From: Pyrus communis
Taxonomy: Eukaryota > Streptophyta > Magnoliopsida > Rosales > Rosaceae
Assembly: GCF_963583255.1 (NCBI RefSeq)
Contig: NC_084803.1
Coordinates: 6,376,238 to 6,440,237, forward strand
Length of the DNA: 64,000 bases
Direction: 5' to 3'
Shown here: positions 3,201-64,000 of the stretch, piece by piece
Position numbering within the stretch: the first letter of the stretch is position 1
How the letters are laid out: every line of letters begins with the position of its first letter
The notes under the pieces: model-generated
What the model was told of the DNA's origin: nothing
Seen by the model: the letters and a program-made list of their open reading frames with translations, nothing else
Databases searched by the model: none
Position numbers and translations under genes: made by a program

Positions 3201-4228
3201 AAGGCTTCAGCAAATGTCCCTTTGAGCACACATTGTTTATCAAGACAGCCAATGAAGGTAAAATATTGATTGTATGCCTATATGTTGATGATCTTATTTT
3301 CACTGGGAATGATGAAGTGTTGTTTGAGCAATTTAAGAAATCCATGATGATTGAGTTTGATATGATTGATCTCAGACAAATGAGGTACTTTCTTGGCATT
3401 GAAGTAATACAGACATCAGATGGTATTTTTATGAGTCAACGTAAGTATGCACATGAAGTGTTAGAAAGGTTTAACATGGGTTAGTGCAACTCAGTGCATA
3501 ACCTTGCAGTTCTTGGTTTCAAACTCACTCGTGATGAAGGAGGAGCGAGATTAGATAGCACATTTTATAAGCAGATGGTTGGAAGTCTTATGTACTTAAC
3601 AGCTACACGACCTGATCTTATGTACACCGTAAGCCTAATCAGCAGGTACATGGAGTATCCTACTGAGACTCATGTGATGGCAGCCAAAAGGATTTTAAGG
3701 TACATAAAGGGCACTGTTGAGTTTGGGGTATTCTACAAGAAGGGAGGAGATGAAGGGCTTATCGACTATACAGACAGTGACTATGCTGGTGATCAAGATG
3801 ACAGAAGGAGCACGTCAGGCTATGTATTTATGATGAATTCAGGAGCAGTCTCATGGTCCTCGAAGAAGCAACCAGTGGTCACTCTTTCCACCACTGAAGC
3901 AGAGTTCATTGCTGCAACTTCAAGTGTGTGTCAAGTAATGTGGTTAAGAAGGATTTTGAGTAGTTTGAATTTGAGGCAAACTGGTCCGACAGTGGTTTAT
4001 TGTGATAATGTCTCAACCATTAAGCTTTCAAAGAATCCAGTAATGCATGGTCGTAGTAAACATATAGATATAAGGTTTCATTTCCTTCGAGATCTTGTCA
4101 AAGATGAGGTAGTGGAGTTGCTGCAGTGTTCTACGCAGAAGCAGATAGCAGACATAATGACGAAGCCGCTGAAACTTGAAGTATTTCAGAAGCTGCGAGA
4201 TTTAATGGGTGTTTGCAAAATGCCCTAG
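274..4228 (+). pseudogene. Broken Copia gag-pol polyprotein
   Basis: Gag with a CX2CX4HX4C zinc knuckle (CYNCHELGHFPWEC) is followed by the protease motif FLDSGCSKHMCG, the GAG-pre-integrase HCRYGHLS region, integrase (LRTDRGGEF, QQNGIAERKNRT), reverse transcriptase (YVDD at 3281-3292) and RNase H (YTDSDYAGD, STTEAEF). It resembles the TNT1-94 type polyproteins common in plants. The frame is broken at least five times: an in-frame TGA at 1243-1245, a small deletion with frameshift near 1803-1812 in the integrase core, TAA at 2577-2579, a frameshift near 3110-3120 in RT, and TAG at 3482-3484. It cannot make a full polyprotein, so recent movement must have relied on proteins from another copy. 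Confidence 0.92.
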
Positions 4229-28327: not shown

Positions 28328-28956
28328 TGTGACATCCCACGTCGTCCAGGGGAGTGATCCTTAAATGTATATTCTCATCCCTACTTAACATGAGGCCTTT
28401 TGGGAGCTCACTGGCTTTGGGTTCCATGGGAACTCCGAAGTTAAGCGAGTAGCGCGCGAGAGCACTCCTAGGATGGGTGACCCATCGGGAAGTTCTCATG
28501 TGAGTTCCCAGAAACAAAACCATGAGGGTGTGGTCGGGGTCCGAAGCGGACAATATCGTGCTACGGTAGTAGAGCGGAGCCGAGAAGTGATCCGCCCCGG
28601 GTCGGGATGTGACAATTTGGTATCTGAGCCTAACCCTGGTCGCGTGTGTGCCGACGAGGACGTCGGGCCCCTAAGGAGGGTGGATTGTGACATCCTACAT
28701 CGCCTAGGGGAGTGATCCTTAAATGTATATTATCATCCCTACCTAGCACGAAGCCTTTTGGGAGCTCATTGGCTTCGAGTTCCATGGGAACTCCGAAGTT
28801 AAGCGAGTAGCGCGTGAGAGCACTCCCAGGATGGGTGACCCATCGGGAAGTTCTCGTGTGAGTCGTGAGGGCGTAGTCGGGGCCCAAAGCGGACAATATC
28901 GTGCTACGGTGGTGGAGCGGGCCCAAGAAGTGATCCCCCCGAGTCGGGATGTGACA
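28328..28956 (+). mobile_element. Cassandra TRIM retrotransposon, copy 1
   Basis: LTR1 28328-28614 (TGTGACATCC...GTGACA) and LTR2 28686-28956 enclose about 70 bp with a PBS (tggtatctgagcc, 28618-28630) and a purine tract before LTR2. Each LTR carries a 5S rRNA-like segment, the hallmark of Cassandra. TSD ttaag at 28323-28327 and 28957-28961. LTR2 has lost about 17 bases (the cccagaaacaaaac region). Non-coding. Confidence 0.93.
28401..28504 (+). other. 5S rRNA-like domain in Cassandra LTR
   Basis: gaactccgaagttaagcgag (A-box region) and ggatgggtgac (C box, 28471-28481) followed by gggaagtt match the internal promoter part of plant 5S rRNA in order and spacing. The ends diverge, so it is a 5S-derived Pol III promoter module rather than a functional 5S gene. 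Confidence 0.8.
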
Positions 28957-29745
28957 TTAAGAGTAGATATAAAATTAATTAATATTAAATCAAATTATAT
29001 AGAAGTAGCTAAGCATATTTTCAGCAATTTCAGACCTTCACTTTCATCAAAGGACTTAAATCACATTTTAAAATAGAAGGTACACAAAGAAAGTTGTACT
29101 TTTAGTTTCGTTTACAAAAAACTCCGTATACAACTATGTATTCCACACGAATTTATGTGACATTAAGAGTAGATATAAAATTAATTAATATTAAATCAAA
29201 TTATATAGAAGTAGCTAAGCATATTTTCAGCAATTTCAGACCTTCGTGAGGACGTAGTCGGGGCCCAAAGCGGACAATATCGTGCTACGGTGGTGGAGCG
29301 GGCCCAAGAAGTGATCCCCCGAGTCGGGATGTGACATTAAGAGTAGATATAAAATTAATTAATATTAAATCAAATTATATAGAAGTAGCTATGCATATTT
29401 TCAGCAATTTCAGACCTTCACTTTCATCAAAGGACTTAAATCACATTTTAAAATAGAAGGTACACAAAGAAAGTTGTACTTTTAGTTTCGTTTACAAAAA
29501 ACTCCGTATACAACTATGTATTCCACACGAATTTATGTGACATTAAGAGTAGATATAAAATTAATTAATATTAAATCAAATTATATAGAAGTAGCTAAGC
29601 ATATTTTCAGCAATTTCAGACCTTCACTTTCATCAAAGGACTTAAATCATATTTTAAAATAGAAAGTACACAAAGAAAGTTGTACTTTTAGTTTCGTTTA
29701 CAAAAAACTCCGTATACAACTATGTATTCCACACGAATTTGTGTA
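28957..29745. repeat. Compound tandem array joined to a Cassandra LTR tail
   Basis: A 207-bp unit starting gtgacattaagagtagat occurs at 28951, 29158, 29331 and 29538. The second copy is cut after about 85 bp (cagaccttc) and joined to about 88 bp of Cassandra LTR tail (29246-29336). Spacing of 380 bp (28951 to 29331, 29158 to 29538) shows that a 207-bp duplication was followed by duplication of a 380-bp segment including the LTR tail. Confidence 0.88.
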
Positions 29746-30151: not shown

Positions 30152-30182
<31 letters not shown>

Positions 30183-32505
30183 TCGATTCTTCTCTCAGCT
30201 TCACAATTGCTATTACCTGTGTTCTTCATTATTCTCAGAGGTTTAATATGGTATCATAGCTGGCATTTGGCTTGCTGCCGTGATCGATCTTGAAGATTCT
30301 TCCGCTGCATTCGTGAAGTCATATGGGTCTGCATATCCGTCAAACGAAGTGTCTGTTGCGTTCTGCTTTACTGAGGTGTGCTTTTCTCAGGTGATATCGA
30401 ATCTGTTTCTTTCGTTGAAATTATGGTGAAACTCTGTGATAGGTTTATGATTGATTGATTTCTTGGTGAAGTATGGTGTGTTTGATGATGATTACATTCG
30501 TGACGAAGTTTGGGCATGTTGTTTTCTCTAACTGGATGAAGTGTTTGCATTAGATAACTATTGAGGTTCATAAGATTGTTGAATATTGTGTGCTCTAGAA
30601 AGTATCAGTTTTTCTTGGTACAAATTGTGCGATTTCAAGAAAGTGACATTCTTTCTTGTTTTAAACTGTGTTGATTCAAGAAAGTATCAGTCTTTCTTGA
30701 TCAGAAAGAAAGTATCAGTCTTTCTTTCTTGCTATTAAATCTCAAAGAGTGTCAATCTCTTGTTGGAATGAAGAATTAATTTGTGCAGAAAGCAGTGTGG
30801 ATTAATTGTTCTGTTGTAAATCATGACTACATCAAAAGTTAATAGTCTTCTTGTTATGCTTACCATTAAGTTGAAGGATGACAATTTTGCAGAACGGTAT
30901 TTTCAATTCATGTAAGTGCTTAAGGGTTACAATCTCTTTGGTCATTTCGATGGCACAGATGTCTGTCCACCTAAATTTGCCATTCATACGGATTTAGGTG
31001 TGACTAAGGAGGTTACACAAGCATTTATAGACTGGGAATCTACTAATATGACTTTACTTGGTCTTCTTCTAGCTACTCTATATGATGAAGCCATGGAATA
31101 TGTTCTTGGCTGTAAGAATGCTGTTGATGCTTAGACTAATCTGGGAGATAGGTTTGCATCTGTGTCTAAGTCAAGGGTGAATCACATGAAAATTGAGTTA
31201 CATACAATTCAAAAAGGAACAGAGTCAATTGATAAGTTCTTGTTAAGATTGAAAAACATTAGAGATCGGCTTAATGCTGCATGAGAATTCATTTCAGATA
31301 ATGATGTCATTATTGCTAGATTGGCTGGTTTACCCAAGGAGTATGCTATCATTCGAACATTCATTTTAGCTCAGGAGTCCTCCAACACACTGAAAGAATT
31401 TCGTGCTCAGTTGCTTGGTGTTGAAAAAGAGATTGAAGGGGATACTAATCTTTTGTCTCAGAATCTGTTCACATTGTATATGAATGGTTATGGTTCTAGT
31501 TCTAACTCTGGGACTTCAAGTTCTTCTATTTATGGTTCTACTTCAAATCCTCAAAATCATAGTCATATTCCAGCTACCATAACAGGTGTCATTACTCAAG
31601 TTCCATACTTAAATCCACAGCAACCAGAATATCTTGTACTACCTCAATTTTATCCAATGCCTCAACAACCAGTTCCATTTTATCCACCACCATTCGGATA
31701 TGGTTTTGCTGGTAACATGAGAGGTTTTTCATCATCAAGGTCTAATTCTCAGCAGTCTAATATGAACAGAGTTCAGTATGGTCCTAGAAATTTTAATGGT
31801 TCAAAAAGGCAGAACAATTACATAAATAATGGTGGATATCAGGGCAAGAATTTCAAGCAAAATGGTAACTCTAGCTAGTCTGGAAACACATATACAAGAA
31901 CTAATGTTGTCATTGAGTGTCAAATTTGCAATAAGAGAGGGCATACAGCTGCAAACTGCTATCAGAGAAATAATAATAATGCTCATACAACTGGATTTCT
32001 AGTTGAGTGTCAAATTTATGGTAAGATGGGGCACTCAGCTCTTGAGTGTTTACACAGAGGAAACTATGCATTTCAGGGAAATCCTTCACCACCATCTATC
32101 AATGCCATGAATACACAACAGACACCTCAGTATGTACCTGCAAACTCTTGGATTGTTGACTCTGGGGCATCTCATCATATGACAGCATATATGACTGGGT
32201 TATCAGAGGTTATGCCTTTTGAAGGCTCTGAAAAGATTACAATTGACAATGGTACTACTTTACCTATCCAGAGTGTTGGTACTGCTACTATAGAGAAATT
32301 AAATGTTCTACATGTTCCTCTCTCTCTCTCTCTCTTGGCATAACCTTTCACTATTCTGATCAATAACACTCTCCTGAGTCCTGATCAATACCACTCTCAT
32401 GATCAATATCACTCTCATTCCCGCTTTCTCTCTCTCTCTCTTCGATGCTTATCTTAGCTTCACAGTTGCTATTACTTGTGTTCTTCATTCTTCTCAGAGG
32501 TCTAA
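29966..32505 (+). mobile_element. Second Copia element, internally deleted, inside the TIR-AP2 gene
   Basis: The 5' LTR is about 29966-30246 and is followed by a PBS-like tggtatcatagc (30249-30260). The 3' LTR is only its last about 100 bp (about 32405-32505), matching 30150-30246. TACTC flanks both sides (29961-29965, 32506-32510). Between gag/protease and the 3' LTR remnant everything is missing; the break lies in (CT)n tracts present on both sides (about 32320 and 32425). The insertion interrupts an AP2 exon: the codons for RRQST read across the TACTC duplication. Confidence 0.85.
30823..32340 (+). pseudogene. Decayed Copia gag and protease start
   Basis: One continuous frame with four premature stops (TAA 30913, TAG 31132, TGA 31282, TAG 31876) and no frameshift seen. 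It encodes a Copia gag (YDEAMEYVLG, LAGLPKEY), a zinc knuckle CQICNKRGHTAANC, a second knuckle in which a Cys is replaced (CQIYGKMGHSALEC), and the protease motif WIVDSGASHHMT. It ends in a CT repeat where the deletion begins. Confidence 0.85.
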
Positions 32506-35500
32506 TACTCTGACGACGAATGATATGCACAAACTCTTCCTTTGTAAGATTACTCATCTGCATTGCAATAAAAATCAATCCCAAGTCGAAAGAAACAAAA
32601 CAAAACCAGTAAAAGTCTTCGCATAACATACATGAAAAGGGATCATCTCCAGATCGCTTCCACCTGAGCCAACTGAGCAAAAAATATACGCCCTTAAAAT
32701 TTGATCCAATGGCTAAAGTTATAATAACTTTTAATGGGCTCCTTTATTTTTAACCGTTGGATCAAATTTCAAAGGCACAAATGTTTTGCTCAGTTGGCTC
32801 TAGGGATTCCCTTTCCTACATGCACAATGCACTCGGAAAACTGACCTGCTTAATATCATCCTCATAATCACTGACACTGAAATTAATATCAGCCTCAATT
32901 CCGCGGAACTTGATCGCAGCTCGATCATACGCCCTAAGATCCATTTTACCACAACCACAAAATTACGCAAAAATTTAACTACTTGTAAGCCAAGTTTTAC
33001 ATTGAAAGTTTTACTGTTGACACTTCTGAGTTTCTTAGTTCTTACCTAGCAGCAGCATGGGCAGTGTCAAATGCTCCTAAAAAATATTCAAAAATTAAAA
33101 ATAATCCGCCAGAAATTAAAAAATAATAATAATAGCAATTAAATGGTGGATTTTGATTCATTTTTCTTACCCAAGTACACTTGTTTCCCGCAATCCCTAC
33201 ACAAAAAAATAGACAGCGAGAGGACTCAAATTCAGCACACAATCAGAGTATCCAAACAGAGCAATAATACATCAGTATCATTGTAACCAAACACTAACCA
33301 AATATGGGATTCCCATCTCCCTGTCCTTCGATAAAACGTAACGCCCCGGTACTGCGAGCTCCGGGACCTGGGCGTAGTAGAAAGGGGAGACTTAGTGCTG
33401 GACATAGGAGATAATGCGAGCTTGGGAGAATCTAACTTGCCCGGCGGCGTAGAAATGGGAGACTTAGCGCTGGACATAAGAGATAATGCTAGCGCGGGAG
33501 AATCTAATTTGCTCAGCGGCGCGCTGGACATAAGAGATAATGCGAGCTCGGGAGAATCTAACTTGCCCGACAGCGTAGAAAGCGGAGACTTAGCGCTGGA
33601 CATGAGAGATAATGCGAGCTCGGGAGAATCTAACCTGCCCGGCGGTGTAGAAAGGGGAGACTTAACGCTGTCCGTAAATGCTATTTCAATTGGAGTCGGG
33701 CTTTGGAGTAGTTTAGCGATCTCGTCAATAATTACCCTGATAAACATTCCTTCATACCTGGTTGTTATATTTGAAAATGAAGCAAAAGTACATAAGATTT
33801 ATTAGCAACTGCAAAGAGTAAATAAATTTTAAAAAGTATTTTGAAGTTTTTGAAATGACATATAAGATCATCTTCAAAACGGAACGTCAAATTTTGAACA
33901 TAAAATTTAAATTGATAGTTCTATGATACTTTGATATCACTCCACCGATATGTCAAATTTTAAATATAAAATAAAAATTCATATTTATTTTTTTTGCATT
34001 GATAATGAAAGATAATGAACCAAAAGGTACAAAAAAAATATTTAAACATTATATTGGCGATGAAAAACATTTAATAATTAATTAAAAATTATATGAAGTT
34101 GTTAAATTTGACAGCAACTATCTTTGTTGCCATCCCACATCAATCAAAATTTCAGTTGGAAAATACTAGTGTTATCAATTTTTACACTTATTGATGTCAT
34201 TTTTTTTACACTTATTGTTGATGTGGACTTTTTAACATGTCATTTGGAGTTGCTCTAAATCCAAACTTTTTTTTTTTTTTTTTTAAATTTGTCATTTGAA
34301 AATTTTTAAAAAAAAATTTAAGTGATTTTTCATATTAATTTTCTGAAATTATTAACTAATCATCTCACTAAGTTTTTTCAGTCAAAATAAATCATGTAAA
34401 ATTGTGTTTCTTATTTAAGCCATTAGAACTTTTTAACAAGTTTATTTATTTATTTATATATACACACAACACAAAAACGTGGGGAATAAATTAGTATTTG
34501 ACTTTTAAGTTTTTACCTCCTTTTCACAAATTCTCTACTTTCTGTGGCTTAATACAAAATTTTTAGCTGGTAAAAGAACATGCAAAGTTCATCTCAAACA
34601 TTTATTGTCAACTACTGAAAAAACCATCAGCCTCATGAGATTACCCACTAGGAAGATGGAGAATTTTTGGCTTTTCTGTGTGAGAAGCAAAGGTCTGGGC
34701 AAATCTGGAAGTATCATGACAAAGTTTTTGTTTTGGGTGAGATTAGTCAAAGTTGAGGCACCCAAATTTTTATCTAAAATTAGATTTATAACTTATCTTC
34801 TCAACAATTATCTTTTTAAAATTAATTTTGTATAAAAAATAATTACAATCTGATGATCTGCACAATATCAAACATTGTATTAAATAGTCAACATTTTAAT
34901 ATGTTAGAGCACCAAATGCTGGACAAATTTAGTCAATATTATCCGATAACTAATTATCATATTCAACTGAAATAATCAGTACAGTTCAAGCTGTTAAACG
35001 AAGCCTAAATCATGAGTACCACCGCCCCCATTTGAACGAGCACATCTAGGAGAAACAATTAGAGAACAAGCTCATATATCTTCAGAAGCCTTGAACTCTA
35101 GCAATTCAACTTTGACATTAAATTTAGAGAAAAAGATGAAATCTAGAAGGAGAATTTCGGGAGAAGAATTGGATTGAAAAAGAAATAAAAAATAAATGAT
35201 AGAGAACTCAAATCTAAACATGACTGTTAATGACGATTTAAAGAAATAATGAACAAACAGAGAAAAGTACGTACTTACCCATTAGTCGCTCTGAAAACCC
35301 GGGCTGGCAAACCTGCAGCTGCAGTAAGAGCATCTGTCCAGACTGTCAAACCTGCAACTGCAGTAAGAGCATCTGTCCAGACGGCCAAACCTGCAGATGC
35401 GGTAAGAGCATCTGTCCACCGCCGTAGCTTTTCTTGTATATCTGTATCTTCATGGAAGCGCTCTATATGCTTCTGAAATGCTAGTAAAAAACTACCTAAT

Positions 35501-35886
35501 ACATCTGACGGACTAAGATCGTAGAATATTGGCAGAACCATTTGCTTCAGTGTTCTTCTGCACTCCATGATCTGCACCAGCTCCTCAAGACACCAGATGG
35601 AATCCGCATACATGCTTGAGAAGACGATGACCGAAACCTTAGACCCTTCGATTATTTGCTTCACTTTGTCTGATATATTTTCCCCTCTTCTTATTGATTC
35701 GTTCTCCTCCATAAAGAAGTCAATTCCGGCGTCTTTCATTGTCCAGTAGAGGTGGTCCGTGAAGGTTTTGCGCGTGTCTTCGCCAAAGCTCAAGAACACA
35801 TTGTAGGGTGAGGAGGAGGAGGTGGTGGAGGAGGAGGAGGACGGTGAAGATGGAGGTGAGGCTTCAAGGGATGTACTTGTATCCAT
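32360..35886 (-). CDS. TIR-AP2 fusion gene of block A
   Basis: Six exons on the minus strand join in one frame: 35886-35279, 33757-33299, 33196-33171, 33076-33046, 32933-32846, 32557-32360 (GT-AG, phases agree; about 469 aa). Exon 1 has a Ser-rich start and a TIR domain ([18 protein letters not shown] with the conserved Glu, ending ATNG). Exon 2 opens with the TNL linker start (YEGMFIR), then runs through four 18-25-residue repeats ([14 protein letters not shown]) into [20 protein letters not shown]. Exons 3-5 complete a first euAP2-type AP2 domain ([26 protein letters not shown]). Exon 6 ([16 protein letters not shown]) enters a Copia LTR at 32505; the LTR supplies about 48 residues and the stop at 32360. 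NB-ARC, LRR and the second AP2 domain are absent. It lies head to head with the TNL remnant at 41340. Transcription is unknown. Confidence 0.82.
32666..32800. mobile_element. Short foldback MITE in last TIR-AP2 intron
   Basis: gagccaactgagcaaaa at the left is repeated inverted as ttttgctcagttggctc at the right. Inner arms (tttgatccaatgg / ccgttggatcaaattt) also pair. 135 bp, no clear target duplication. Confidence 0.75.
33312..33640 (-). repeat. In-frame tandem repeats in the TIR-AP2 linker
   Basis: About four units of a 72-bp repeat (one shortened to about 54 bp), each encoding a version of [20 protein letters not shown] followed by MSSA. All keep the frame. Block B has no such repeats at this position. 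Confidence 0.85.
35280..35425 (-). repeat. 39-bp in-frame repeats at the end of the TIR exon
   Basis: Three units encode [26 protein letters not shown] and [13 protein letters not shown]. Block B has one unit here. The repeats lengthen the last TIR helix region. Confidence 0.85.
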
Positions 35887-41228: not shown

Positions 41229-41339
41229 GAAACACTCTCCCTTCGTGATTTGGGGAGACTGAAGGGTCACTGAAGCGAGTAGTTAACTTGGTATCTGCGT
41301 ATCATCTGGGAAAACCACAAGCTCTGCCAACAACAATCA

Positions 41340-41690
41340 ATGGATACTACCGTCACAGCCGTTGATCCCTCCTCTGCATCTTCACCCTCCTCCTCGAAAC
41401 AATGGAAGCACGACGTGTTCTTGAGCTTTAGAAGCGAAGACACGCGCCGGACCTTCACCGACAACCTCTACTGGACATTAAAAGACAACAAAGTCAACGT
41501 CTTCGATTATAATCTATGAGACTTGACTCATCTGCCTTCTGTTGATCGTCTTTCTCAACAAGCATAGAGTTGATCTGCCGCTCCTTAGCATTCTCGGATT
41601 TCCCACAGTTTAGTTCTCCTGTCAACTTGATGGAAGTTCTGTTCGACATGTAACTTGATAAGAAAATGTTCAAATCATTAATAACGTTAA
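41340..41690 (+). pseudogene. Block A TNL remnant: TIR start fused to TNL 3' flank
   Basis: 41340-41504 encodes the first 55 residues of a TIR protein nearly identical to the intact TNL at 49953 (VFLSFRSEDTRRTFTDN, ending NKVNVF). At 41504/41505 the sequence jumps to gattataatctatgagactt, which is 54393 on, in the 3' flank of the intact TNL, and follows it to about 41680. A deletion equivalent to about 4.28 kb removed the rest. Upstream sequence (from about 41225) matches the block B promoter-proximal region. Confidence 0.92.
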
Positions 41691-42439: not shown

Positions 42440-42831
42440 TCACGTTGTCTCAAACACCAACTCCACCTTCTCCGGCGGGTGCCGGTGCTCCCCCTCGTAC
42501 ATTACGATCAGCACCTTCGGATCATCCGGAGCTCGGTCCACGTGTTTCCTCGCCGGGCATCCTCTTACCTTACTGCACTTGTAATATCCCCTGTTCAACA
42601 TAAACAATCAAGCAAACGTCAGATTCAATTCTCACCGTCCGATCATATCGCATCCCGATTTTTCATTTCATTACCAAATCTACGGCTGGAATTTAAATTG
42701 AGTACCTTGGGTAAGGCGAGCCCTTGATCGGCTTCTGACCGTACTTTCTCCAGGTGTGCTCGTCCGCTGGAATATCCTTGATTTTTGAACTTATCGCCGG
42801 CACCCGAATCGTTTTCTTCAACTGCTTTTTC
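42440..42831 (-). other. Complete WRKY group IId DNA-binding domain (two exons)
   Basis: WRKYGQK plus the zinc ligands C-X5-C-X23-H-X-H are all present. The intron falls at the conserved PR|GYYKC site (phase 2, 42705-42591). The protein ends about 14 residues after the last zinc ligand. WRKY domains of this type bind W-boxes (TTGAC[C/T]). Confidence 0.93.
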
Positions 42832-42924
42832 CTGAATTACCAAAAATTACAGCAATTAATTGATTAATTTTTTAAATAAAAAAATCGAATATATAAACAA
42901 GTTTAGGGATTTTTAGTCGTCGGT

Positions 42925-43475
42925 CAAAATTAAGAGTAATGTTAAGGAAATTATTCTTATCGGTGATACATCATTTAAGTTATAAATTTAATTTTCCTAG
43001 CATTACTCTTAATTTAAAAGTAATGATATTTTTATCACATTTTTTTACCATCTTAGGTAGCAGATGAGTTGAATAAGTTACATCATCTAATTTCAATATT
43101 TTTATTAATTAAAACACTTAAATAATCTTAGATGGAAGATGAAGACTCCTCGCATACCACAATCATCATTTAATCAATAATCTTTTTATTAATTATTGAT
43201 TAACATTTTGATTAAATGCTAATTAATTTAGATGATGTGGTTGTTCAACTCATTTGCCATCTAAGATGGTAGAGAAATGTGGTATAAAATTGTGATAAGA
43301 ATAGCATTATTGTTAATTTAACGCAAGGGAGACCTAATTTGTAGAAAAAATTTGCAAAAAAAACGATGTGTCATCAATAGAAATGAGTCATAATTCAATC
43401 ATCAACTTCCATGTCATTTAGTTTGCAAAATTTTGTTTACAAATTTAGTCTCCCTAGCATTATTTAAAAATTAAA
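42925..43475. mobile_element. Nested foldback MITEs
   Basis: An inner inverted repeat (about 43015-43315) pairs agtaatgatatttttatcac...accatcttag with ctaagatggtag...gtgataagaatagcatta. Outer pieces (about 42930-43010 and 43315-43465) share agtaatgtta..., catcattta, tagtctcccta-gcatta phrases seen again near 60535-60730. Related copy at 49529-49800. Confidence 0.6.
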
Positions 43476-43702
43476 CAACAAAAGCCTTTTCCCCAAATGC
43501 TAGGAAAAAAAAAAACAAACTTTTTACTATTTGAAAGTCGAATTAATACGCCAGGCGCATCTTATTGTGTTAGCTTCAACGCGTGCTACAACCATTGATG
43601 CCCAACAACTGACCCGGGATACTGACCGGGTCCATTCTTGTTAGGATTGACGGTATTACATGACAAGGAAAAATAAAAAGTAAAGAAGAAAGATAGACAT
43701 TA

Positions 43703-44229
43703 AGGCCTCGTTTGGCAGCTCGGACTGTACTGACTATTTCTGTCGGATAGGATAAATAGCCACCGGATAGTACTGACTAAATTAGTCGGGTGTTTGGTGC
43801 AGTATCGGACTAGCGATCGTATTATTTATACTGTGTTTGATATTATACTAGATAGGAGGCATCAAACTTTAAAAAAAAAAAAATTTTTAAATGAAATCAT
43901 TTTTTTGTTCCCAGGTCTCTCCGCACCCCCCAAACACCCTCCCTCTCTCTCCCTTCTTCTTCCCCGACGATAGAAGAATCCCAAATAATTGTTCCCCAGC
44001 TCTCTCCGCCACACCCCCCAAACTCCCTCCCTTTCTCTCCCATATTCTTCTTCCCCGACTAAATAATCCGGACGTTTTGGTTGGTTTTATTAAGCGGGTG
44101 TATACCGTATTATCCTATCCGACCGGTTAAATTAATCCGGTGCTTATTTAGTACGAGTGAACGCCAAACACCCGGGTCCGTATAACTAATCCTATCCGAT
44201 CCTTTATCCGATGTGCCAAACAGGGGAAT
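43703..44229. mobile_element. Tourist/Harbinger-like MITE
   Basis: Ends ggcctcgtttggca and tgccaaacagggg are inverted repeats, and TTA flanks both sides (43700-43702, 44230-44232). The interior contains a CT-rich duplicated block and many tccgacc/tatccga motifs. No transposase. Confidence 0.6.
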
Positions 44230-44232
44230 TTA

Positions 44233-44790
44233 CGTGGTTCAACAATTTTTGCTTGCGTCTACAAGACAACAATCAATCTTCCACTATATTAAAATAATGG
44301 ATACGGCAAGAACAATCTTACCAAGCCAAAGACAAGGCTTGATGAATAAAAGAAAATATAACACTCTTACACTGTTAATCTGACTCACAATTTATGGTGG
44401 AACACGCTCACTCTCAACCTTGGAGTGGAACAACTCTTAGAACTCTCACTCCTAGTCTTTTGGATGATCTACAATGGTGAAACGCCACCTCTATTCATAT
44501 GCATGGATTGAAAATCCTAGTGAGTCCAAGAATTAACTCTTCCACTGTCAAGGGAAGTCGAACCACTCATGCACCATCCAATGCATTACCCTTGGAACTC
44601 CATGTGTTCATGCACCACATAGAGGTCCCATGTTTGATTAAATGAACCAACCATTACATTCCTTTGAATATAGTATTCTCCAATGTATCATTTGTTCCCA
44701 AAAGACTTCCAACACTTTTATGGTTCGTTGAGACTATGGAAAAACCAACCAACTCTTATAGTCTCAGTAACCGTGCTAGAGGCGTATTTT
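44233..44790. repeat. Possible LTR fragment
   Basis: Starts acgtggttcaaca and runs without coding potential to the TIR-WRKY exon. The acgtggttc start recalls Copia LTR ends, but no partner LTR or PBS is seen. Confidence 0.3.
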
Positions 44791-45338
44791 AGCTGGGGAG
44801 AGGAAATGTAAACTAAAATACGCAGAATAAAATGCGGGGGTAACGAATGACGCGTACCTCCTCTTGGAGTTGGAGCAATGGTACTCGCCGGAGCCGGAAG
44901 CAGATCCCGTGCCAGGTAACTTGCCCGGAAGTGTAGAAGGGGGAGACTTAGCGCTGTCTGTAAATGCTATTTCAATTGGAGTCGGGCTTTGGAGTAGTTT
45001 AGTGATCTCGTCAATAATTGCCCTGATAAACATTCCTTCATACCTGGTTGTTATATTTGAAAATGAAGCAAAAGTACACAAATATTTATTAGCAACTGCA
45101 AAGATTAAATAAATTTTAAAAAATATTTTAAAGTTTTTTGAAATGACATATAAGATCATCTCCAAAAAGGAATGTCAAATTTTGAACATGAAATTTAAAT
45201 TGACAGTTATATGACATTTTGACATCACTCCATCTGATATGTCAAATTTTAAATATAAAATAAAAATTCATATTTATTTTCTTTGCATTGGTAATGAAAG
45301 AAAATGAACGCAAAGGTATAAAAATATTTAAATATTAT

Positions 45339-45493
45339 AGGGAGTTTTAACGAAAAACCCACGGTACTGTTCACTTTAATGAAAAACCATATTTTTATAC
45401 TAAAAAGTCAATCATAGTACTATTCACTTCACCCTTTATTTTGTCCTTATCGTTAAAACTCAAAATTTTCAAATCCTTTTCATTAGTTTTCCT
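45339..45493. mobile_element. 155-bp hAT-like MITE in TIR-WRKY intron 1
   Basis: agggagttttaacgaaaaac...cattagttttcct, flanked by aatattat / aatatttt (7 of 8 match). Block A near 34048 lacks it. Confidence 0.75.
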
Positions 45494-45824
45494 AATATTT
45501 TATATTGGTAATGAACGAAAATGAGAAGACTAATAAAAAGAATTTAATAATTAATTAAAAATTATTTGAAGTTGCTGTTAAATTCGACAGCAACTATCTT
45601 TGCTGCCATCCCACATCAATCAAAATTTCAGTTGGAAAATACTAGTGTTGTCATTTTTTACACTTATTGTTGATGTGGACTTTTTAATATGTCCTTTGGA
45701 GATACTCTAAACCTAAACATTTTTTTCTTTCTAAATTTGTCATTTGAAATGTTAAAAAAAAAATTAAGTGATTTTTCATAATAATTTTCTGAAATTATTA
45801 ATTAATCATCTCACTAAGTTTTTT

Positions 45825-46464
45825 TGTGACATCCCACATCGCCCAGGGAAGTGATCCTTAAATATATATTCTCATCCTTACCTAGCACGAGGCCTTTTGG
45901 GAGCTCACTGACTTCGGGTTCTGTAGGAACTCCGAAGTTAAGCGAGAAGGGGGCTAGAGCAATCCCATGATGGGTGACCCACTGGGAAGTTGCTTGTGAG
46001 TTCCCAAAAACAAAACCGTGAGGGAATGGTCGGGGCCCAAAGCGGACAATATCGTGCTACGGTGGTGGAGCGGACCCGGGAAGTGATCCACCTCGGGTCG
46101 GGATGTGACAATTTGGTATCAGAGCCTAACCCTGGCCGTGGTGTGCCGACGAGGACGTCGGGCCCCTAAGGGGGGTGGATTGTGACATCCCACATCGCCC
46201 AGGGGAGTGATCCTTAAATGTATATTCCCATCCTTACCTAGCACGAGACCTTTTGGGAGCTCACTGGCTTTGGGTTCCGTAGGAACTCCGAAGTTAAACG
46301 AGAAGGGGGCTAGAGCAATCCCATGATGGGTGACCCACTGGGAAGTTGCTCGTGAGTTCCCAAAAACAAAACCGTGAGGGAATGGTAAGCCCAAAGCGGA
46401 CAATATCGTGCTACGGTGGTGGAGCGGGCCCGGAAAGTCGTCCCGCACGGGCCGGGATGTGACA
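45825..46464 (+). mobile_element. Cassandra TRIM retrotransposon, copy 2
   Basis: LTR1 45825-46110, PBS tggtatcagagcc 46114-46126, LTR2 46181-46464. 5S-like core (gaactccgaagttaa, gatgggtgac) in both LTRs. It lies in the first intron of the TIR-WRKY gene, antisense to it. Block A at about 34374 has the uninterrupted sequence (ctaagttttttcagtc), so insertion followed the duplication. Confidence 0.93.
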
Positions 46465-47235
46465 ATTTTCAACCAAAATAAGTTATGTAAAATTGTGTTT
46501 CGAGTTATTTAAGCCATTATAACTTTTTAACAAGTTTTTATTTATTTATTTTATACACACACACACACCACAAAGACGTGAGGAATAAATTAGTTTTTGA
46601 CTTTTAAGTTTTAACCTCATTTTCACAAATTCTGCACTTTCTTTGGCTTGAACACAAAACTTTTGGTTGGTAAAAAGAACACGCGGAGTTCATCTCAAAC
46701 ATTTATTGTCAACTACTGAAAAAACCACTAGCCTCGTGAGATTACCCACTAGGAAGATGGAGAATTTTTGGCTTTTATGTGTGAGAAGCAAGGATCCGGG
46801 CAAATCTAGAAGTATCATGACAAAGTTTTTGTTTTAGGTGAAATTAATCAAAGTTGAGGCACCCAAGTTTTTATCTAAAATTAGATTTATAATTTATCTT
46901 CTCAACAATTATCTTTTTAAAATTAATTTTGTATAAAAAATAATTACAGTATGATGATCGGCATAATATCAAACATTGTATTAAATAGTCAACATTTTAA
47001 TTTGGTAGAGCACTAAATGTCTGATTAATTTAGTCAATGACTAATTATCCTATTCAACTGAAATAATCAATACTGTCTGAGCTGTCAAACGAGGCCTAAA
47101 TCATGAGCACCACCGCCCCCATTTGAATGAGCGCAGCTATCAGGCCACACACATCTAGAAGAAACAATTGGAGAACAAGCTCATGTATCTTTAGAAGGCT
47201 TGAACTCTAGCAATTCAACTTTGACATTAAATTTA

Positions 47236-47390
47236 AGGAAAACTAATGCAAAGAATTTGAAAATTTTAAGTTTTAATGATAAAGACAAGATAAAGGGTAA
47301 AGTGAATAGTACCAGGATTGACTTTTTAGTGTAAAAATGTGGTTTTTCGTTAAAGTGAACAGTAGCGTGAGTTTTTCGTTAAAACATCCT
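47236..47390. mobile_element. 155-bp hAT-like MITE, inverse orientation
   Basis: aggaaaactaatgcaaag...cgttaaaacatcct, flanked by taaattta / taaaatta (7 of 8 match). Same length as the copy at 45339. Absent from block A near 35125. Confidence 0.75.
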
Positions 47391-48094
47391 TAAAATTAGA
47401 GAAATTGATGAAATTTAGAAGGAGAATTTCGAGAGAAGAATTGGATTGAAAAAGAAATAAAAAAGAAATGATAGAGAACTCAAATCTAAGCATGACTGTT
47501 AATGACGATTTAAAGAAATAATGAACAAACAAACAGAGAAAAGTACGTACTTACCCATTAGTCGTTCTGAAAACCCGGACTGTCAAACCTGCAGCTGCAG
47601 TAAGACTGTAAGAGCACCTGTCCACCGCCGTAGCTTTTCTTGTATATCTGTATCTTCATGGAAGCGCTCTCAATGCTTCTGAAATGCTAGTACAAAAGTA
47701 CCTATAACATCTGACGGACTAAGATCGTAGAATATTGGCAGAACCATTTGCTTTAGTGTTCTTCTGCACTCCATGATCTGCACCAGCTCCTCAAGACACC
47801 GGATGGAATCCGCATAACTACTTGAGAAGACGATGACCGAAACCTTAGACCATTCGATTATTTGCTTCACTTTGATATATTTTCCTCTCTTCTTATTGAT
47901 TCGTTCTCCTTCATAAAGAAGTCAATTCCGGCGTCTTTCATTGTCCAGTAGAGGTGGTCCGTGAAGGTTTTGCGTTTGTCTTCGCTAAAGCTCATGAATA
48001 CATCGTAGGGTGAGGAGGAGGAGGTGGTGGAGGAGGAGGAGGAGGAGGACGGTGAAGATGAAGGTGAGGCTTCAAGGGCTGTACTTGTATCCAT

Positions 48095-49952
48095 AACTGC
48101 TTACAGCAAAATTTATGATTAATTCAAGTCAAAGTGCACAGATCAGTCCACAAGAAAAGAAGTGCTTTTCTATCTACATAATTGGATCGAAGTGCGCAGA
48201 TTTGCTCGCCCAAGGGAAATTGAAATACGATGGCTTTTCATAAAAGCAAATAAATCTGGATAAGCAATACAATAGAATACAATACCCAACTAATATCTAA
48301 TTGAGAAAATAAAGACTATTAATCGAAAACAGAGGAAAAAACCTGCATGATCCTTCAGCCACACCTAATTCCCCAATTTACAAGATGAAAGATTTGCAGA
48401 GCAAGGAATAAGAAAGAGGGAGGAGATGGAGAGCTGGAGAGCCGGAGACAATAAGCAATATCCTTCTTGTCCCTTCACTTCCGTTGACTTTCTTTCCGTT
48501 GAGGGATCTTCAAATAATTTCATTTAAGAATGTGCTTGTTTCCTAACATTTTTTTCACGATTTAAATTATTTATATTGTAGTACATTGTTTATAAATTAT
48601 TTTTACAAAATATTTAAAAATAATAATAATTATTAAAACATCTAAGTATGGTAAAGAAAATAGATAAATACGATTTTTCAAGAAACATGATATTATGATC
48701 AATTAATTCAACTGTCAAATAATTTCAAAATTGTTGATTTTGATAAAAATAATTTTTTAAGAAATATTTAAAAGATGAACGGTTAAATGGTTGAATTATG
48801 ACAGAGTGGGTTCTATATAAGATCCAGATCCCTAGTTACGTCTTAACGAAAAGTCAACAAAATAGAAGCGACAAAGAAGTGTATACATGTGTATATATTT
48901 TTTTTTTCAGACGATATATTTTGTTAAATTAATCACCAACAGAGTTTGAATTTACACCATCATGAAATGGTTTAACATCTTTTCATCACTATGCACGAAA
49001 AGGTGAACAGTGACACTCTAAAAATTGAATTATGCACAAAGAAGTGAATAATTAGATTTTTTTTTTAAAGTACATCGATATTTTTATACTAAGAAGAGAG
49101 GGAGTTCGGTTAAGTCACACAATTGACAACTTAATTTGGTATCGAATTTACCTTCCCTCCTCTCACATTTTTTTTTTTTTGTCTTATTATTTTTACATAA
49201 AAAAATCAATATAAGATGTTGACGTGACTTAATCGTAACCGTTCAGATAGGAAGAGAGTATAAAGAGATTAAGAGGTAATAGAATCCTATTGGGTTGTGG
49301 ACTTGACTGATGGTTTGTTGACCTTTAGGTGGAGAAATTTTTTGTTATGACGGGAACACGGATAATACACCAAGTGTTTTTATGTAAGTGGTGCAAAATT
49401 TTAATTTTTAAGTTATTAATCTTTTAACACACATATCCCACAATTTATATAAGAACACGTAATGTACAACCTCGTATGACGGTCACACTGAAAAATCTCT
49501 CCTTTAGGTGGTTTGTTGACTTTAATTAAAGAGTAATGTTATTCATACCATGTTTTTATACCACCTTATATGACATTTGATGTGGACAACCACATCATTT
49601 GAATTAATCAAAATTTTAAATTTAGTTCCTTATTTAGTAAACTAATAATTAAGAAAAACTAATTAATTAAATGATAATTGTGATATACGATGAGTATTTC
49701 TTATTCGTTTTCCTGGTTTTACAAATTTTTTAAATAATGTGACAGTCCACATCAGATGTCATCTAAAATGATATAAAAACATGATATATAACATTACTTT
49801 AATTGTGAGGGGTAAAGTTGGATTTAAAGCTGTGGATGGAAAAAACACTTTCCCTTCGTGATTTAGGGAGACTGAAGGGTCACTGATGCGAGTAGTTGAC
49901 TTGGTATTTGCAGATCATCTGGGAAAACCACAAGCTCTGCCGACAACAATCA
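48095..49952. promoter_or_regulatory. Head-to-head intergenic region of block B
   Basis: Separates the divergent TIR-WRKY and TNL start codons. W-box cores TTGAC[C/T] occur at 48484, 49303, 49318, 49516 and 49896 on the plus strand and as AGTCAA at 48127 and 48852. A MITE occupies 49529-49800. Shared control of the pair is inferred from the arrangement. Confidence 0.45.
49529..49800. mobile_element. Foldback MITE upstream of the TNL
   Basis: agagtaatgttattcatacc...catttgatgtggac pairs with gtccacatcagatgtcatct...ataacattacttt. Same family as the inner element at 43015-43315. Confidence 0.75.
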
Positions 49953-51025
49953 ATGGACACTACCATCACAGCCGTTGATCCCTCCTCTGTATCTTCACCC
50001 TCTTCCTCGAAACAATGGAAGCACGACGTGTTCTTGAGCTTTAGAGGCGAAGACACGCGCCGGACCTTCACCGACAACCTCTACTGGACATTAAAAGACA
50101 ACAAAGTCAACGTCTTCATTGACGAGAACGAACTTCCAAGAGGAGAAAACATAACAGATGAACTGGTGGAAGCGATCAGACGGTCCAGGATGTCCGTCGT
50201 CATCTTCTCGAAACGGTACGCGGAATCCCGATGGTGCCTTGAGGAGCTGGAGAAGATCATGGAGTGCAGAAGAACACTTGGGCAAATCGTTCTGCCAATA
50301 TTCTACAACGTCGATCCGACGGATGTTAGGAACCAGACTGGTACTGTTGCAGAAGCATTTCAGAAGCATGCAGAGCGCTTCCATGGAGATACAGATAAAG
50401 TCCAGAGGTGGAGATCTGCTTTTACTGAAGCTGCAAATTTGTGTGGTGGGAACCTTAGAAACACTGATGGGTAATTTCTCTGTTACTTTTTAACTTACTG
50501 TTTTTACATACATAGCATGTATTTTACAGGATGATGTATTACAAGTGTGGAACCAGAAATTTTTACCAGGGTGGGCTAGCAAATTGTTATAGGGTGACTT
50601 GTTGGTTGCTAAAAAGAATTTTCGACGGAAATTCAAGAGATAATATGGAGAATCAATAAGCCATAGAGACTTAAGATTAAAAACTAGAGTCATGAAGGGA
50701 TTGTTTTAATAAATTGAGTAAACATACAAATTAACATGAGTAAGGCTTAATTTGGGTTAATTACACTTTAAGATATATATTGATATGCGGATTATATTCA
50801 AACTTTTCACGAAAAAAGTACCTGGATTATAGCCCGTGTTCGCCATCATGCTAGTTACGATGTTGATGAATTAGTTTTGGTTTAGCAACCTTTAATTGCC
50901 GACTTGAAGTGTTGGCTTTTCTTAAGCCTCTACTACAAAATGTCAATAAACTATAAAATGATAGGGCTTAGAACCTTGATCAGTTTACACATTGTAATGC
51001 TGCTAATGCAAAGATTAGAAACCTG

Positions 51026-51101
<76 letters not shown>

Positions 51102-54007
51102 CTAAACGCTTGATCTATCAGTTTGGTCGAATTGAGCTAATCACATGGATCAATATAATGTGCCATTGTTTTGTTGTTGTCATGACAAAGTTATTAGTTG
51201 AGTTTAATCCTGCAGTTTATGATTCTTACTTCTTCTTACTTTGGAAATTTTTGTTAACAGGTACGAAGGTAAGTTTATAAGGAAAATTGTCAACGACATC
51301 ACTAGAAAACTGAACAACACATACTTAAACGTGGCTGCCAAAGAAATTGGAATAGATTCTAGAGTGCAAGAAATCATCAATGATTTAGATGTTGGAGGAT
51401 CAGATGATGTCCGCATTGTTGGAATTTTGGGCATGGTTGGAACGGGGAAGACAACGGTTGCAAAAGCCATTTTCAACAGAGTTCATCAAAGCTTTGAAGG
51501 TAAAAGTTTCCTTTCAAAAGTGAGGGAAGAGAGTATGGTTAAACTGCAAAACCAACTTCTTTGTGATATCTTGAAACCGGCCAACATAGAGGTAAGTAGT
51601 GTGGATCAAGGAACCAAGGAGATACAAAAAAGACTTGGCGGCATAAAGGTACTTGTCATAATTGATGACATAGACTCTGTGGATCAACTAGAAGAGTTAG
51701 CTATAAAACACGAGTCGTTTGGTCGAGGGAGTAGAATTATTGTAACAACAAGAGATGAACAACTGCTAAAGTTCATTAGAGTCGATAAGACGTGTTTGGC
51801 ACAAACAATGAATAATGAAGAAGCTCTTCAGCTTCTTAGTTGGCGTGCCTTCAGGAAGAGTCATCCTAACGATGATGAATATCTCGAACTCGCAAATAAG
51901 GTTGTTGATTACTGTGGAGGGTTGCCACTAGCGCTTGAAGTTTTAGGTTCTTATCTAAGTTCAAAAACCAAAAGAGAATGGAGAAGTGCACTGCGCAAAT
52001 TGAAAAGAAAGCCTCACGGGAAGATTTATGAAAAGCTTAAAATGAGCTACGATGGGCTAATTGACGATGACGTGAAGGCTATATTCCTTGACATATCTTG
52101 TTTCTTTATTGGAATGAACAAGGACTATGTCATGACAATATTAGATGGCTGTGACTTCGACCCAGATATAGGTATTGGAGAACTCCATGATCGGTGCCTT
52201 GTAACTGTTGATGAAGGAAACAACCTTATAATGCATGATTTGCTTCGAGATATGGGTAGAGAAATTGTACGTGCAAAATCTCCTACCATCACTGGAAAAC
52301 GTTGTAGATTGTGGGACCAGGACGATGTAAAAGACGTATTGAGTAACATATCTGTAAGTACATTTGCAATCAAATTGTAGTATAAGAATGTATGTAATGA
52401 AAGATAAGTGTATGCATATCCCACATACAAATAACCCTTTTCATATTTACTTCTTGCTTGATGGATCCAATTCATGGCTTTGCTTCATGTGTATAAATTG
52501 TCTTTTCGCAGTCCTTTTCTTACCTATTTTCGTTTCTAACAGGGAACGGAGGACGTTGAAGGACTCACTTTAGATTTGCATGAGTCTGACAAGCCTAGCT
52601 TCAGTACAGAAGCACTTAGAGAGATGCGGAGGCTGAGGTTGCTCATGCTGAAAGGTGTGAAGTTCACGGGAAACTGCACATATCTTTCCAAAAAGCTAAC
52701 ATGGCTGTGTTGGCCTGAGTTTCCTCTAGAGGTCATGCCCGAAGATTTTAATCTACCAAACCTAGTTGATGTCGATCTGAGTCATAGCCAAATGCTGGTT
52801 TGGACGGACTCTGACGTGGTACCGCATAATTTTAACCAACCTATTGATTCTTTCTTCCAGGTTTTGTAAGTACTGACATCATGCTTTCTCCCTTCTGTTT
52901 GGATTTTAATTTTGTTTTCGTTTTTGTCTCACAGCGGCTTGAGAAATTGAAGTTTCTTAATCTGGGTCATTGCTGTCGCCTAAGAAGATCACCAGACTTT
53001 TCAAAACTCCCCAATGTCGAGAGATTGATACTCAAAGACTGCAAGAGTTTGGCCGAGGTTCACCCTTCCATAGTACAACTGAAGTGCCTTAAATATCTCT
53101 CTCTTGCGAACTCCAATTTAACAAATGATGCAATTCCTGAGGATCTCGGGTCTATATCTTCTTTAGAAGTTTTAGATCTAAGAGGCAATGATTTTACTGC
53201 ACTACCTATCGTCACTGGCCTTTCCAAGCTTCAAACTTTACAGTTGGATAATTGCACAAAGCTTCAGGCAATTCCGAATTTACCGACAAGGTTGGAAATC
53301 CTGGAAGCGAATCAGTGCGTTGCATTGGAAAGAATGCCAGATTTTTCGGAGATGTCGAGATTGAGAGAATTGCATCTGAATTACTCCCCCAAACTCACTG
53401 AAATTCCAGGCCTGGATAAGTCGTTAACCTCCATGACAAGGATTCAAATGGAAGGGTGCACCAATCTCAATGATGCTTTTCTGGAAGCAATCCAACGGGT
53501 TCTCTCTCTCTCTCTCTCTCTCTCTTATGTATGCATGCATGCATGTATTAATTGCTCATACAAATCTTGCTGCGCATGGTATAGGGATGGAGTGCGAGTG
53601 GAAATGGTGGCCTTTTTCTTCCTGGACCTTCATGGTTAAGGGGTGTCCAGCCTAAGGAGGAAATCAATGAATATACGCTTGACTGTGAGTCCAGGTCATA
53701 TTCAAGTGAATACAAGGAAGGCAGAAATCATGAGGCAGCAAGACCTGGTGATGACTCATACGATGAGAATCGATCTCACAAAAGAATAAGGTTTGATCTC
53801 AGTATAGAAAGCAATGCAGAAGGAACTGTTGCCGGGGAATATAATTGCATTGTAGTTCAAAACCACAAAAGCTGCATGGAATCTGATGCGACCTTTGAGG
53901 AGGGGGGAGATGGTGAGGATGAAGAGAAGGCTCCAAGTGCTGTGCTAGTATCCGTTAATTGTTCTTCAAGCGGAACTGATCAGAAGTACAAATTCGGAAT
54001 CAGTTGA
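49953..54007 (+). CDS. TIR-NB-ARC-LRR immune receptor (TNL), intact
   Basis: Five exons (49953-50470, 51261-52353, 52543-52860, 52935-53498, 53585-54007) give 971 residues in one frame. Exon 1 is the TIR domain (DVFLSFRGEDTRRTF, WCLEELEKI with the catalytic-type Glu). Exon 2 is NB-ARC: linker YEGKFIR, P-loop GMVGTGKTT, kinase-2 VLVIIDDID, RNBS-B GSRIIVTTRD, CGGLPLAL, MHD IMHDLLRDMG. Exons 3-4 are a short LRR. Exon 5 holds the post-LRR motif GWSASGNGGLFLPG, a basic SHKRIRFD, and an acidic tail. The exon 3 donor must be the weak GTTTTG at 52861, since the nearby GTAAGT breaks the frame. ATG 49953 is preferred over an upstream in-frame ATG because the block A copy starts at the same place. TNLs sense pathogen effectors and signal through TIR NADase activity. 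Confidence 0.93.
51027..51098 (+). repeat. (TG)n(AG)n compound microsatellite in TNL intron 1
   Basis: About 18 TG units followed by about 17 GA units. A likely length-polymorphic site. Confidence 0.95.
53499..53550 (+). repeat. (TC)n run starting at the TNL intron 4 donor
   Basis: The donor is gttctctctc..., and the microsatellite starts within the first bases of the intron, followed by (ATGC)n. The whole intron is only 86 bp. Confidence 0.9.
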
Positions 54008-54700
54008 TCTTCTGACTTGAATGTTGTGTTGTGAGCATTACTTTGCTGGGCGGAGGTTTGGTGTTGCACTTGCATATGAAGATTGAACTAGCAAAGTAGG
54101 GTCCAACTCCACATTGTTTCGAATCACAAAACAAAGTGCAAGTACGTCCTCCTGTCGGTGAGAGTGCTGAGACGCAGAGACAGTATTCTGAAACACGAAC
54201 AATTTGTTTGTTCATAAATTATTAGATTGAAAAGATTGACCTTTGCATCTACTGAGGTTCAGAGCCCTTATGTTGATGAATTGCTCTTTCCGAATGAGTT
54301 CATATATCACGATTAACGAACCCTTGTTAATAAAATGGACACTGAGAGCACTATAATCCTACAATTACATGCAGTTGAAGGAAGAATAATTAGATTATAA
54401 TCTATGAGACTTGACTCATCTGCCTTCTGTTGATCATCTTTCTCAACAAGTATAGAGTTGATATGTCGCTCCTAAGCATTCTCGGATTTCCCACAGTTTA
54501 GTTCTTCTGTCACCGTGATGGAAGTTTTGTTCGACATGTAACTTGATAGGAAAATAGTAAGAAAGCTTCGCTTGTTGCAGAGCCTCCACCGGCCTTGAGA
54601 TTGTCTCCTCAAGGCCGCACACCCCGAACAGGCGGCGGCTTCAGTTGTCAATGAAGGCAGTGTAAGATGACACTTAAGTTGTCAAAGTTTTGTAATGGTA
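54008..54700 (+). other. TNL 3' flank, shared with 41505-41690 and 4569-4605
   Basis: Bases 54393-54560 are nearly identical to 41505-41675, and 54303-54340 resemble 4569-4605. These matches define the extent of the duplicated blocks. Confidence 0.85.
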
Positions 54701-63760: not shown

Positions 63761-64000
63761 GTATGCTTGTTTTTCAGCCACAAATGGAAATCTGTATTGA
63801 TATATATTGCTGCATTGTGATTAATGTGCAGTTGCTTGTTTTGTTTCACATTTTTCGTGCCGCATATTTTTGGGTTGGCATCATTGGTTGCTGAATGAAA
63901 GTTCGCATTTTGAATTTGATTGCTTTATGGATGTTTACATTGTGAAGTATATGAGCTCATTATCTAGGAAAATTATTAATGAAGAGGGAGGGTCCAATCG

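Follow-up and report, generated by a model that had tools for sequence, protein, structure and literature searches.

Plant proteins that carry a TIR domain and extra C-terminal sequence without a nucleotide-binding and leucine-rich repeat (NB-LRR) part, the TIR-X proteins, were reportedly described by Meyers et al. in 2002, and TIR-only proteins such as RBA1 also lack NB-LRR. Other parallels come from paired NB-LRR receptors (NLRs) with integrated domains. Arabidopsis RRS1, a TIR protein, has a WRKY transcription-factor domain integrated as a decoy and stands divergently from a TIR-NB-ARC-LRR receptor (TNL), RPS4 (PMC4207616; PMC9153377). Members of the grass NLR clade MIC1 are reported to swap their integrated domains at a similar position, to have received donor sequence copied together with intron sequence, and to lie head-to-head with an NLR of another clade; one of them, wheat NLR-AP2a, has AP2 at the very site where it replaced a WRKY (Bailey et al., 2018; PMC5819176). 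AP2 is also listed with nucleotide-binding site (NBS) genes in a 2024 survey (PMC11126693). Here we analyze a pear gene, which we call TIR-AP2, in a 64,000-nt stretch of the Pyrus communis genome (GCF_963583255.1, NC_084803.1, positions 6,376,238–6,440,237, forward strand; hereafter the window).

The pear locus resembles MIC1 in that one clade exchanges integrated domains at a similar place and in that donor introns were copied along, and resembles RRS1/RPS4 in having a transcription-factor domain on a TIR protein. Its divergent TNL, which faces the TIR-WRKY sister gene described below, may be a further parallel to both. It differs from both in format: MIC1 genes encode grass NLRs with NB-ARC and LRR, and RRS1 has these domains as well, whereas the pear and apple proteins, from a eudicot tribe, have a front end of TIR and linker only, with neither domain found. 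It differs from TIR-X proteins in that X is here a recognizable captured domain, exchanged among close relatives, and in that two positions which TNLs conserve are missing from the TIR. A previous sequence-only reading of the window had regarded AP2 on a TIR-only protein as undescribed. This holds in part: AP2 is a known integrated domain of NLRs and NB-less TIR-X proteins are known, and what appears to be new is an NB-LRR-free format with exchangeable domains. Among the titles and passages seen in searches of the open-licence full-text literature, outside which most subscription journals lie, none described a clade of TIR-only proteins whose integrated domains are exchanged. Since two surveys of integrated domains start from NB-ARC genes (PMC4759884; PMC11126693), a series of NB-less TIR-plus-cargo proteins would escape both.

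A TIR domain and an AP2 repeat in one reading frame

TIR-AP2 is encoded on the minus strand by six exons with GT/AG borders and matching phases (Table 1), which join into a single open frame of 469 amino acids, as the sequence-only reading had claimed both for the exons and for the in-frame union of TIR and AP2. The protein runs from the TIR domain through the linker that precedes NB-ARC in TNLs and a set of Ser/Pro repeats to one euAP2-type AP2 domain. Pfam identifies TIR (PF01582; residues 28–166, E = 1.6e-34) and AP2 (PF00847; residues 338–386, E = 1.8e-10), and a scan of all 469 residues gave no match to NB-ARC or LRR. A single exon contains both the TNL linker and the beginning of AP2, which share an uninterrupted frame of 188 codons (33232–33798, minus strand), and the fusion is therefore present in the DNA itself, independent of any predicted splice. 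For the same reason we rejected the alternative, raised by the earlier reading against itself, that the AP2 exons have their own start and belong to another gene.

The gene is already in NCBI, as uncharacterized, from both P. communis and P. x bretschneideri. The P. x bretschneideri protein (P0001) has the same architecture, with 91% identity over 99% coverage, and a P. communis record of 413 amino acids (P0002) covers 87% of TIR-AP2 at 100% identity; the P0002 model reads through the end of the fifth exon and terminates within the following intron, and the models thus disagree on the last exon. An isoform X2 from P. x bretschneideri (P0003) has the junction that is obtained when an in-frame segment of 267 nt, with GT..AG ends, is removed from TIR-AP2 across the repeats, a hint that transcript evidence may underlie the database models. 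TIR-AP2 is almost certainly a real gene, common to two Pyrus species and a member of the TIR-plus-cargo family described below.

The AP2 segment is of the euAP2 type, as seen from its PF00847 match and from its similarity to P0119, the APETALA2-like protein 3 of P. communis. Among 104 AP2 proteins compared, P0119 comes closest, and the segment differs from it at 4 of 89 residues (G34A, G64S, F76L and L85I). The A34 and I85 states occur in none of the 104. Such near-identity would be expected of a bait or of a domain that binds DNA. Between the window and P. x bretschneideri, one of the 89 residues has changed. Factors of the euAP2 type, P0119 among them, normally have two repeats, and TIR-AP2 has repeat 1 only: it contains a single AP2 stretch, and repeat 2 of P0119 found no tblastn match in the window. 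The full first AP2 domain expected by the sequence-only reading is present as a repeat; the homology, however, ends at RRQS near 32507, and the part of exon 6 that follows is derived from a long terminal repeat (LTR). The introns of the AP2 part are retained, and therefore a genomic fragment must have been copied; retroposition was rejected on this ground.

The C-terminal tail is the antisense of a retroelement LTR end (30165–30248), beside which a primer-binding-like TGGTATCATAGC stands at 30249; the reading as LTR plus primer-binding site was made by eye. Because the tail of P0001 is closely similar, the junction between AP2 and the LTR-derived tail is probably older than the split between P. 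communis and P. x bretschneideri. Directly downstream of TIR-AP2 lies a retroelement remnant (30165–32343, plus strand) that includes this LTR end and was read by eye as Copia-type; its frame at 31879–32340 has a match to Pol_BBD, a retroelement domain (E = 6.5e-9). Near-identical direct repeats (98–100%) occur beyond the remnant at 28863–29744.

A Malus and Pyrus family with exchanged domains

Protein searches gave the best 120 of 2592 matches (7994 candidates scored), the best 120 of 215, and 70 of 70 (7995 candidates); TIR-plus-cargo proteins that are longer or strongly divergent may fall outside the matches listed. Among those listed, 17 Malus and Pyrus proteins (P0001–P0016 and P0121) have a TIR at least 89% identical to that of the window, whereas the top value among the remaining 153 TIR sequences compared is 66%. 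The 17 include isoforms of a single gene, and P0002 is the window's own sequence. In a tree built by a quick method from 76 hand-chosen rows of 171 TIR rows, the 17 proteins and the window TIR form one clade of 18 rows (SH-aLRT support 100).

What stands behind the TIR varies within this clade. We identified the cargo by Pfam scans of all 17 proteins, which for the four WD40 proteins covered the best 25 of 35–40 families, and by PDB comparisons. AP2 is present in P0001–P0003, WRKY with a plant zinc cluster in P0006–P0008, and WRKY with or without WD40 in P0011, P0016 and P0121, so that nine of the 17 carry AP2 or WRKY. The isoforms P0010 and P0013 have WD40, P0014 has a kinase whose best solved relative is MAP3K5, and P0004 combines a second TIR with part of a kinase. 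P0015 has a lipase-3 domain, and its best non-TIR match in the PDB is SAG101 (4nfu_B, E = 8.4e-31). In P0009, TIR is the only Pfam domain and LEUNIG-like Gln-rich sequence was recognized by eye (LEUNIG and LEUNIG_HOMOLOG are names from the source records); P0005 and P0012 are short forms with TIR only. The P-loop pattern is absent from all 17, in which Pfam detected no NB-ARC, and a YEG linker follows the TIR in 16, isoform P0013 skipping it. As in integrated decoys, then, a host domain is found on an immune module whose relatives carry other domains at the same place.

Could these fusions be products of annotation? Merging of neighboring genes was rejected as an explanation for the family as a whole, since AP2 and the zinc-cluster WRKY are each joined inside exon 2 in the DNA of the window. 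It is unlikely for the LEUNIG-type forms (P0009, P0010/P0013, P0011, P0016 and P0121), which come from two genera. Merging could account for the kinase forms (P0004 and P0014) and most of all for P0015, the only SAG101 form; these are joined at an apparent exon boundary, where P0012 seems by eye to run into the intron.

The cargo also bears on a DNA-directed role, in which the AP2, ERF or WRKY part would take the TIR to promoters, there to compete with the donor factor or to act on nucleic acid or on partners at chromatin. Such a role would suit the nine AP2 or WRKY proteins and the fact that the four AP2 changes spare an 18-residue stretch of the domain, and a complex of TIR with double-stranded DNA (7x5l) is among the PDB matches of the predicted P0001 structure. 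However, the cargo of other members (kinase, SAG101 and WD40) is not DNA-binding, and TIR-AP2 has one AP2 repeat where euAP2 factors normally have two. We consider a DNA-directed role very unlikely.

Other NB-less TIR fusions lie outside the clade. ERF-TIR proteins of Pyrus, Malus and Eriobotrya (P0134 and P0234–P0236, of which P0235 is filed as transcription factor ERF14) resemble TIR-AP2 in joining TIR to an AP2/ERF domain without a Pfam NB-ARC, and differ in that the AP2/ERF domain is N-terminal and the TIR only ~62% identical. A TIR-VQ protein is found in Prunus (P0244), with P0237, P0241 and P0242 near it in the TIR tree; a Pfam scan of P0237 gave no match to VQ. Since the P0244 group falls within a starred set (95) that contains Prunus TNL-like rows, fusions of TIR without NB probably arose more than once. 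Two further proteins outside the family have no NB-ARC listed: P0256 (Malus), with TIR and a Suc_Fer-like domain, and P0261 (Prunus mume), with TIR and BURP, the latter a precomputed domain.

TIR residues and the linked TNLs

The TIR of the window is identical to that of P0002. For the residue census we used RPV1 as the ruler, with the numbers H42 and G161, which we take to be correct and which are mutually consistent. The catalytic Glu of the WCL(D/E)EL motif, the adjacent Trp and the AE-interface His (in the SH-type motif of helix alphaA) are kept in 17/17 family proteins. By contrast, the Arg of FRGEDTR is absent in 17/17 (in TIR-AP2 it is deleted), and the Gly after helix alphaE is replaced by Val in 15, TIR-AP2 included, and by Asp in 2. 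Relatives with a P-loop mostly have both (Arg in 101 of 110, Gly in 104 of 110), as do the others compared (29 of 34 and 33 of 34, respectively). The ERF-TIR proteins are like the family in lacking the Arg (4/4) and differ in keeping the Gly (4/4); in the TIR-VQ group the Arg is likewise gone in 4/4 and the Gly is kept in 3/4, and in both sets the Trp beside the catalytic motif is altered in 4/4. The 25 proteins of these three sets represent few independent events, and the counts are not independent trials. The WTDALTAxAGLxV unit of alphaE occurs in one to three copies across the 17 proteins and in three in TIR-AP2.

We presume that the Arg of FRGEDTR and the Gly after alphaE (BE side) carry weight for signaling; a TIR that lacks both, as in all 17 proteins, would not be expected to act as a signaling-competent NAD-cleaving enzyme (NADase). 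The predicted AlphaFold model of P0001 has a mean predicted local distance difference test (pLDDT) of 54, with TIR blocks mostly at 61–90, AP2 at ~52–72 and most of the linker and tail below 50, and we used only its TIR match. The TIR fold of the model is closest to RPV1 (TM-score on target 0.85–0.88) and also matches RUN1 (0.82–0.86), with E values for the RPV1 and RUN1 matches of 4e-12 to 8e-11. AP2 appears as three strands and a helix, at lower confidence, and no AP2 structure is among the best 50 PDB structure matches of the model.

One alternative is that TIR-AP2 is a self-sufficient TIR-only receptor of the RBA1 kind, in which an effector would oligomerize the AP2 part and the protein's own TIR would signal. 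The retention of Glu, Trp and His throughout the family and the match of the TIR fold to RPV1 and RUN1 would agree with this, whereas the loss of Arg and Gly throughout the family argues against it. We take the Gly after alphaE to be the same BE-interface Gly that has been mutated in TIR-only proteins. RBA1 is reported to self-associate on HopBA1 (PMC8124997), which favors such a receptor; mutation of the conserved BE-interface Gly, however, is reported to remove or reduce TIR-only cell death (PMC9806590). For the catalytic position, RPS4 E88K is reported to suppress signaling (PMC4207616), and we aligned E88 to the catalytic Glu by eye. An autonomous receptor of this kind strikes us as quite improbable.

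The window contains two duplicated units, ~11–13 kb apart. Unit A consists of a TIR-WRKY gene and a divergent TNL, and unit B of TIR-AP2 and a TNL relic. The TNL of unit A, for which we have a partial exon model, yields pieces that match P0143 and P0200 from TIR to LRR, and it stands head-to-head with TIR-WRKY, the start codons being ~1.9 kb apart. In the relic, an internal deletion of ~4.3 kb has joined the 5′ end to TNL-downstream sequence. The likeness of TIR-AP2 and TIR-WRKY extends over exon 1, intron 1 and the opening codons of exon 2, as far as 33631 and 44917, respectively, after which they diverge into AP2 or WRKY. Over this stretch the two copies agree at 663/701 coding positions (94.6%), 1366/1468 intron positions (93.1%) and 429/485 upstream positions. 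TIR-WRKY is broken by a +4 nt shift near 47873, a premature stop in the TIR and a change of W to R in WCLEEL. Because it is a pseudogene, the dN/dS values (nonsynonymous over synonymous divergence) between the copies, 0.071/0.132 and 0.065/0.071 for two blocks, the third block holding the stop, are uninformative. Related TIR-WRKY database models from P. communis (P0006) and P. x bretschneideri (P0007) are unbroken.

A locus of this kind invites the view that TIR-AP2 is a by-product of recombination in an NLR cluster, its fragments fused at random into a young and perhaps transcribed chimera that is non-functional and decaying. The sister gene has become a pseudogene, deletion has reduced the adjacent TNL to a relic, and the tail stems from a retroelement LTR; AP2 repeat 1 was captured alone; and coding and intron sequences of the copies agree about equally, though one copy is a pseudogene. 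On the other hand, all six exons are open and the AP2 part is almost the same in P. x bretschneideri. The cargo, moreover, looks non-random, as it comprises transcription factors, a co-repressor, a mitogen-activated protein kinase kinase kinase (MAPKKK)-like kinase and SAG101, all behind a single conserved front end. Every family protein has lost the same two TIR positions, unlike scattered decay, although shared ancestry alone would also give this pattern. On balance we think a random by-product unlikely.

Elsewhere in the window, a Copia-type retroelement with broken frames lies at 262–4228 (plus strand; gag match PF14223, E = 3.2e-31), and an open frame at 63253–63894 (plus strand) matches a Myb/SANT-like DNA-binding domain (PF13837, E = 3.6e-6).

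Table 1. Features of the TIR-AP2 locus (positions in the window)
Feature	Position	Strand	Remarks
TIR-AP2 exon 1	35279..35886	-	Ser-rich N terminus (MDTST...), TIR domain, alphaE repeats
TIR-AP2 exon 2	33299..33757	-	TNL linker, Ser/Pro repeats, AP2 start; frame unbroken
TIR-AP2 exon 3	33171..33196	-	AP2
TIR-AP2 exon 4	33046..33076	-	AP2
TIR-AP2 exon 5	32846..32933	-	AP2
TIR-AP2 exon 6	32360..32557	-	End of AP2 homology (~32507), then LTR-derived tail and stop
TIR domain (residues 28–166)	35389..35805	-	Coordinates from residue numbers
alphaE unit WTDALTAxAGLxV, three tandem copies (residues 157–195)	35302..35418	-	
In-frame 267-nt segment over the repeats	33368..33634	-	GT..AG ends; removal gives the junction of P0003
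euAP2 repeat-1 homology	32507..33369	-	89 amino acids (RSRSSQ...RRQS); introns kept
C-terminal tail, antisense of LTR end	32424..32507	-	90% over 84 bp to 30165–30248
TIR-WRKY sister, broken	42443..48094	-	WRKY matches 42833–42705 and 42595–42443
TNL	49953..53552	+	TIR 50010–50471, NB-ARC part 51262–52365, LRR part 52543–53552; partial exon model
TNL relic	41230..41667	+	5′ end (95% to 49843–50120) fused to TNL-downstream sequence (93% to 54390–54555)

TIR-AP2 as a candidate sensor

The reading that we favor, to which we give a probability of about 45%, is that TIR-AP2 acts as a sensor of the RRS1 kind, for which a partner TNL does the signaling. TIR-AP2, if expressed as a protein, would be a TIR-only protein with an integrated domain, from a family whose TIR-plus-linker took up different regulator domains behind the TIR. 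The AP2 repeat would bait a pathogen effector directed against transcription factors of the euAP2 (AP2/TOE) type. The TIR, presumably unable to build an active NADase assembly alone, would use its AE face to pair with a second TIR, that of a partner TNL in the cluster, a TIR-TIR heterodimer being the expected link here as in RRS1/RPS4 (PMC4207616; PMC9153377). An effector on the AP2 bait would then alter the complex, and the partner TNL would provide both the NB-ARC oligomerization and the NAD-derived signal to EDS1.

A decoy role for the AP2 part, as the sequence-only reading had proposed, is reasonable. AT5G60120 is a factor that we take to be TOE2. A HopR1-group effector is reported to interact with AT5G60120, an AP2-domain protein (PMC4759884), and higher AtTOE1 expression is reported to correlate with Verticillium resistance (PMC13210697). 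In favor of an RRS1-like sensor we count the intact six-exon frame, the architecture shared by two Pyrus species and the single clade with swapped cargo, together with the conserved Glu and AE His and the missing Arg and Gly, each in 17/17, and the presence in the cluster of a divergent TNL, as in the RPS4/RRS1 and MIC1 pairs.

Several observations weigh against it. Coding sequence is hardly more alike than intron sequence between the two copies, and the only DNA relative compared is a pseudogene. The P0002 protein ends one exon sooner; this and the retroelement-derived tail may be signs of decay. With its catalytic Glu retained, TIR-AP2 could have enzymatic activity. Finally, the TNL nearest to TIR-AP2 is the relic; the intact-looking TNL at 49953, which the sequence-only reading had suggested as a partner, is 14 kb off and faces the broken TIR-WRKY.

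More broadly, and tentatively, apple and pear may have an integrated-decoy system without NB-LRR, in which a TIR-plus-linker landing pad has repeatedly taken up parts of the immune network (AP2, WRKY, MAPKKK, LEUNIG_HOMOLOG and SAG101, with the related ERF and Prunus VQ forms), and in which a TIR that has lost the parts for signaling alone would dock its bait on TNLs of the cluster. If this is correct, a decoy would need only a TIR as its adaptor and no full NLR receptor. The captured domains would then form a natural list of immune hubs that Rosaceae pathogens may target (AP2/TOE, WRKY, MAPKKK, LEUNIG_HOMOLOG and SAG101), and the family would offer a small format in which to study how TIR-TIR contacts couple bait and TNL in pome fruit.

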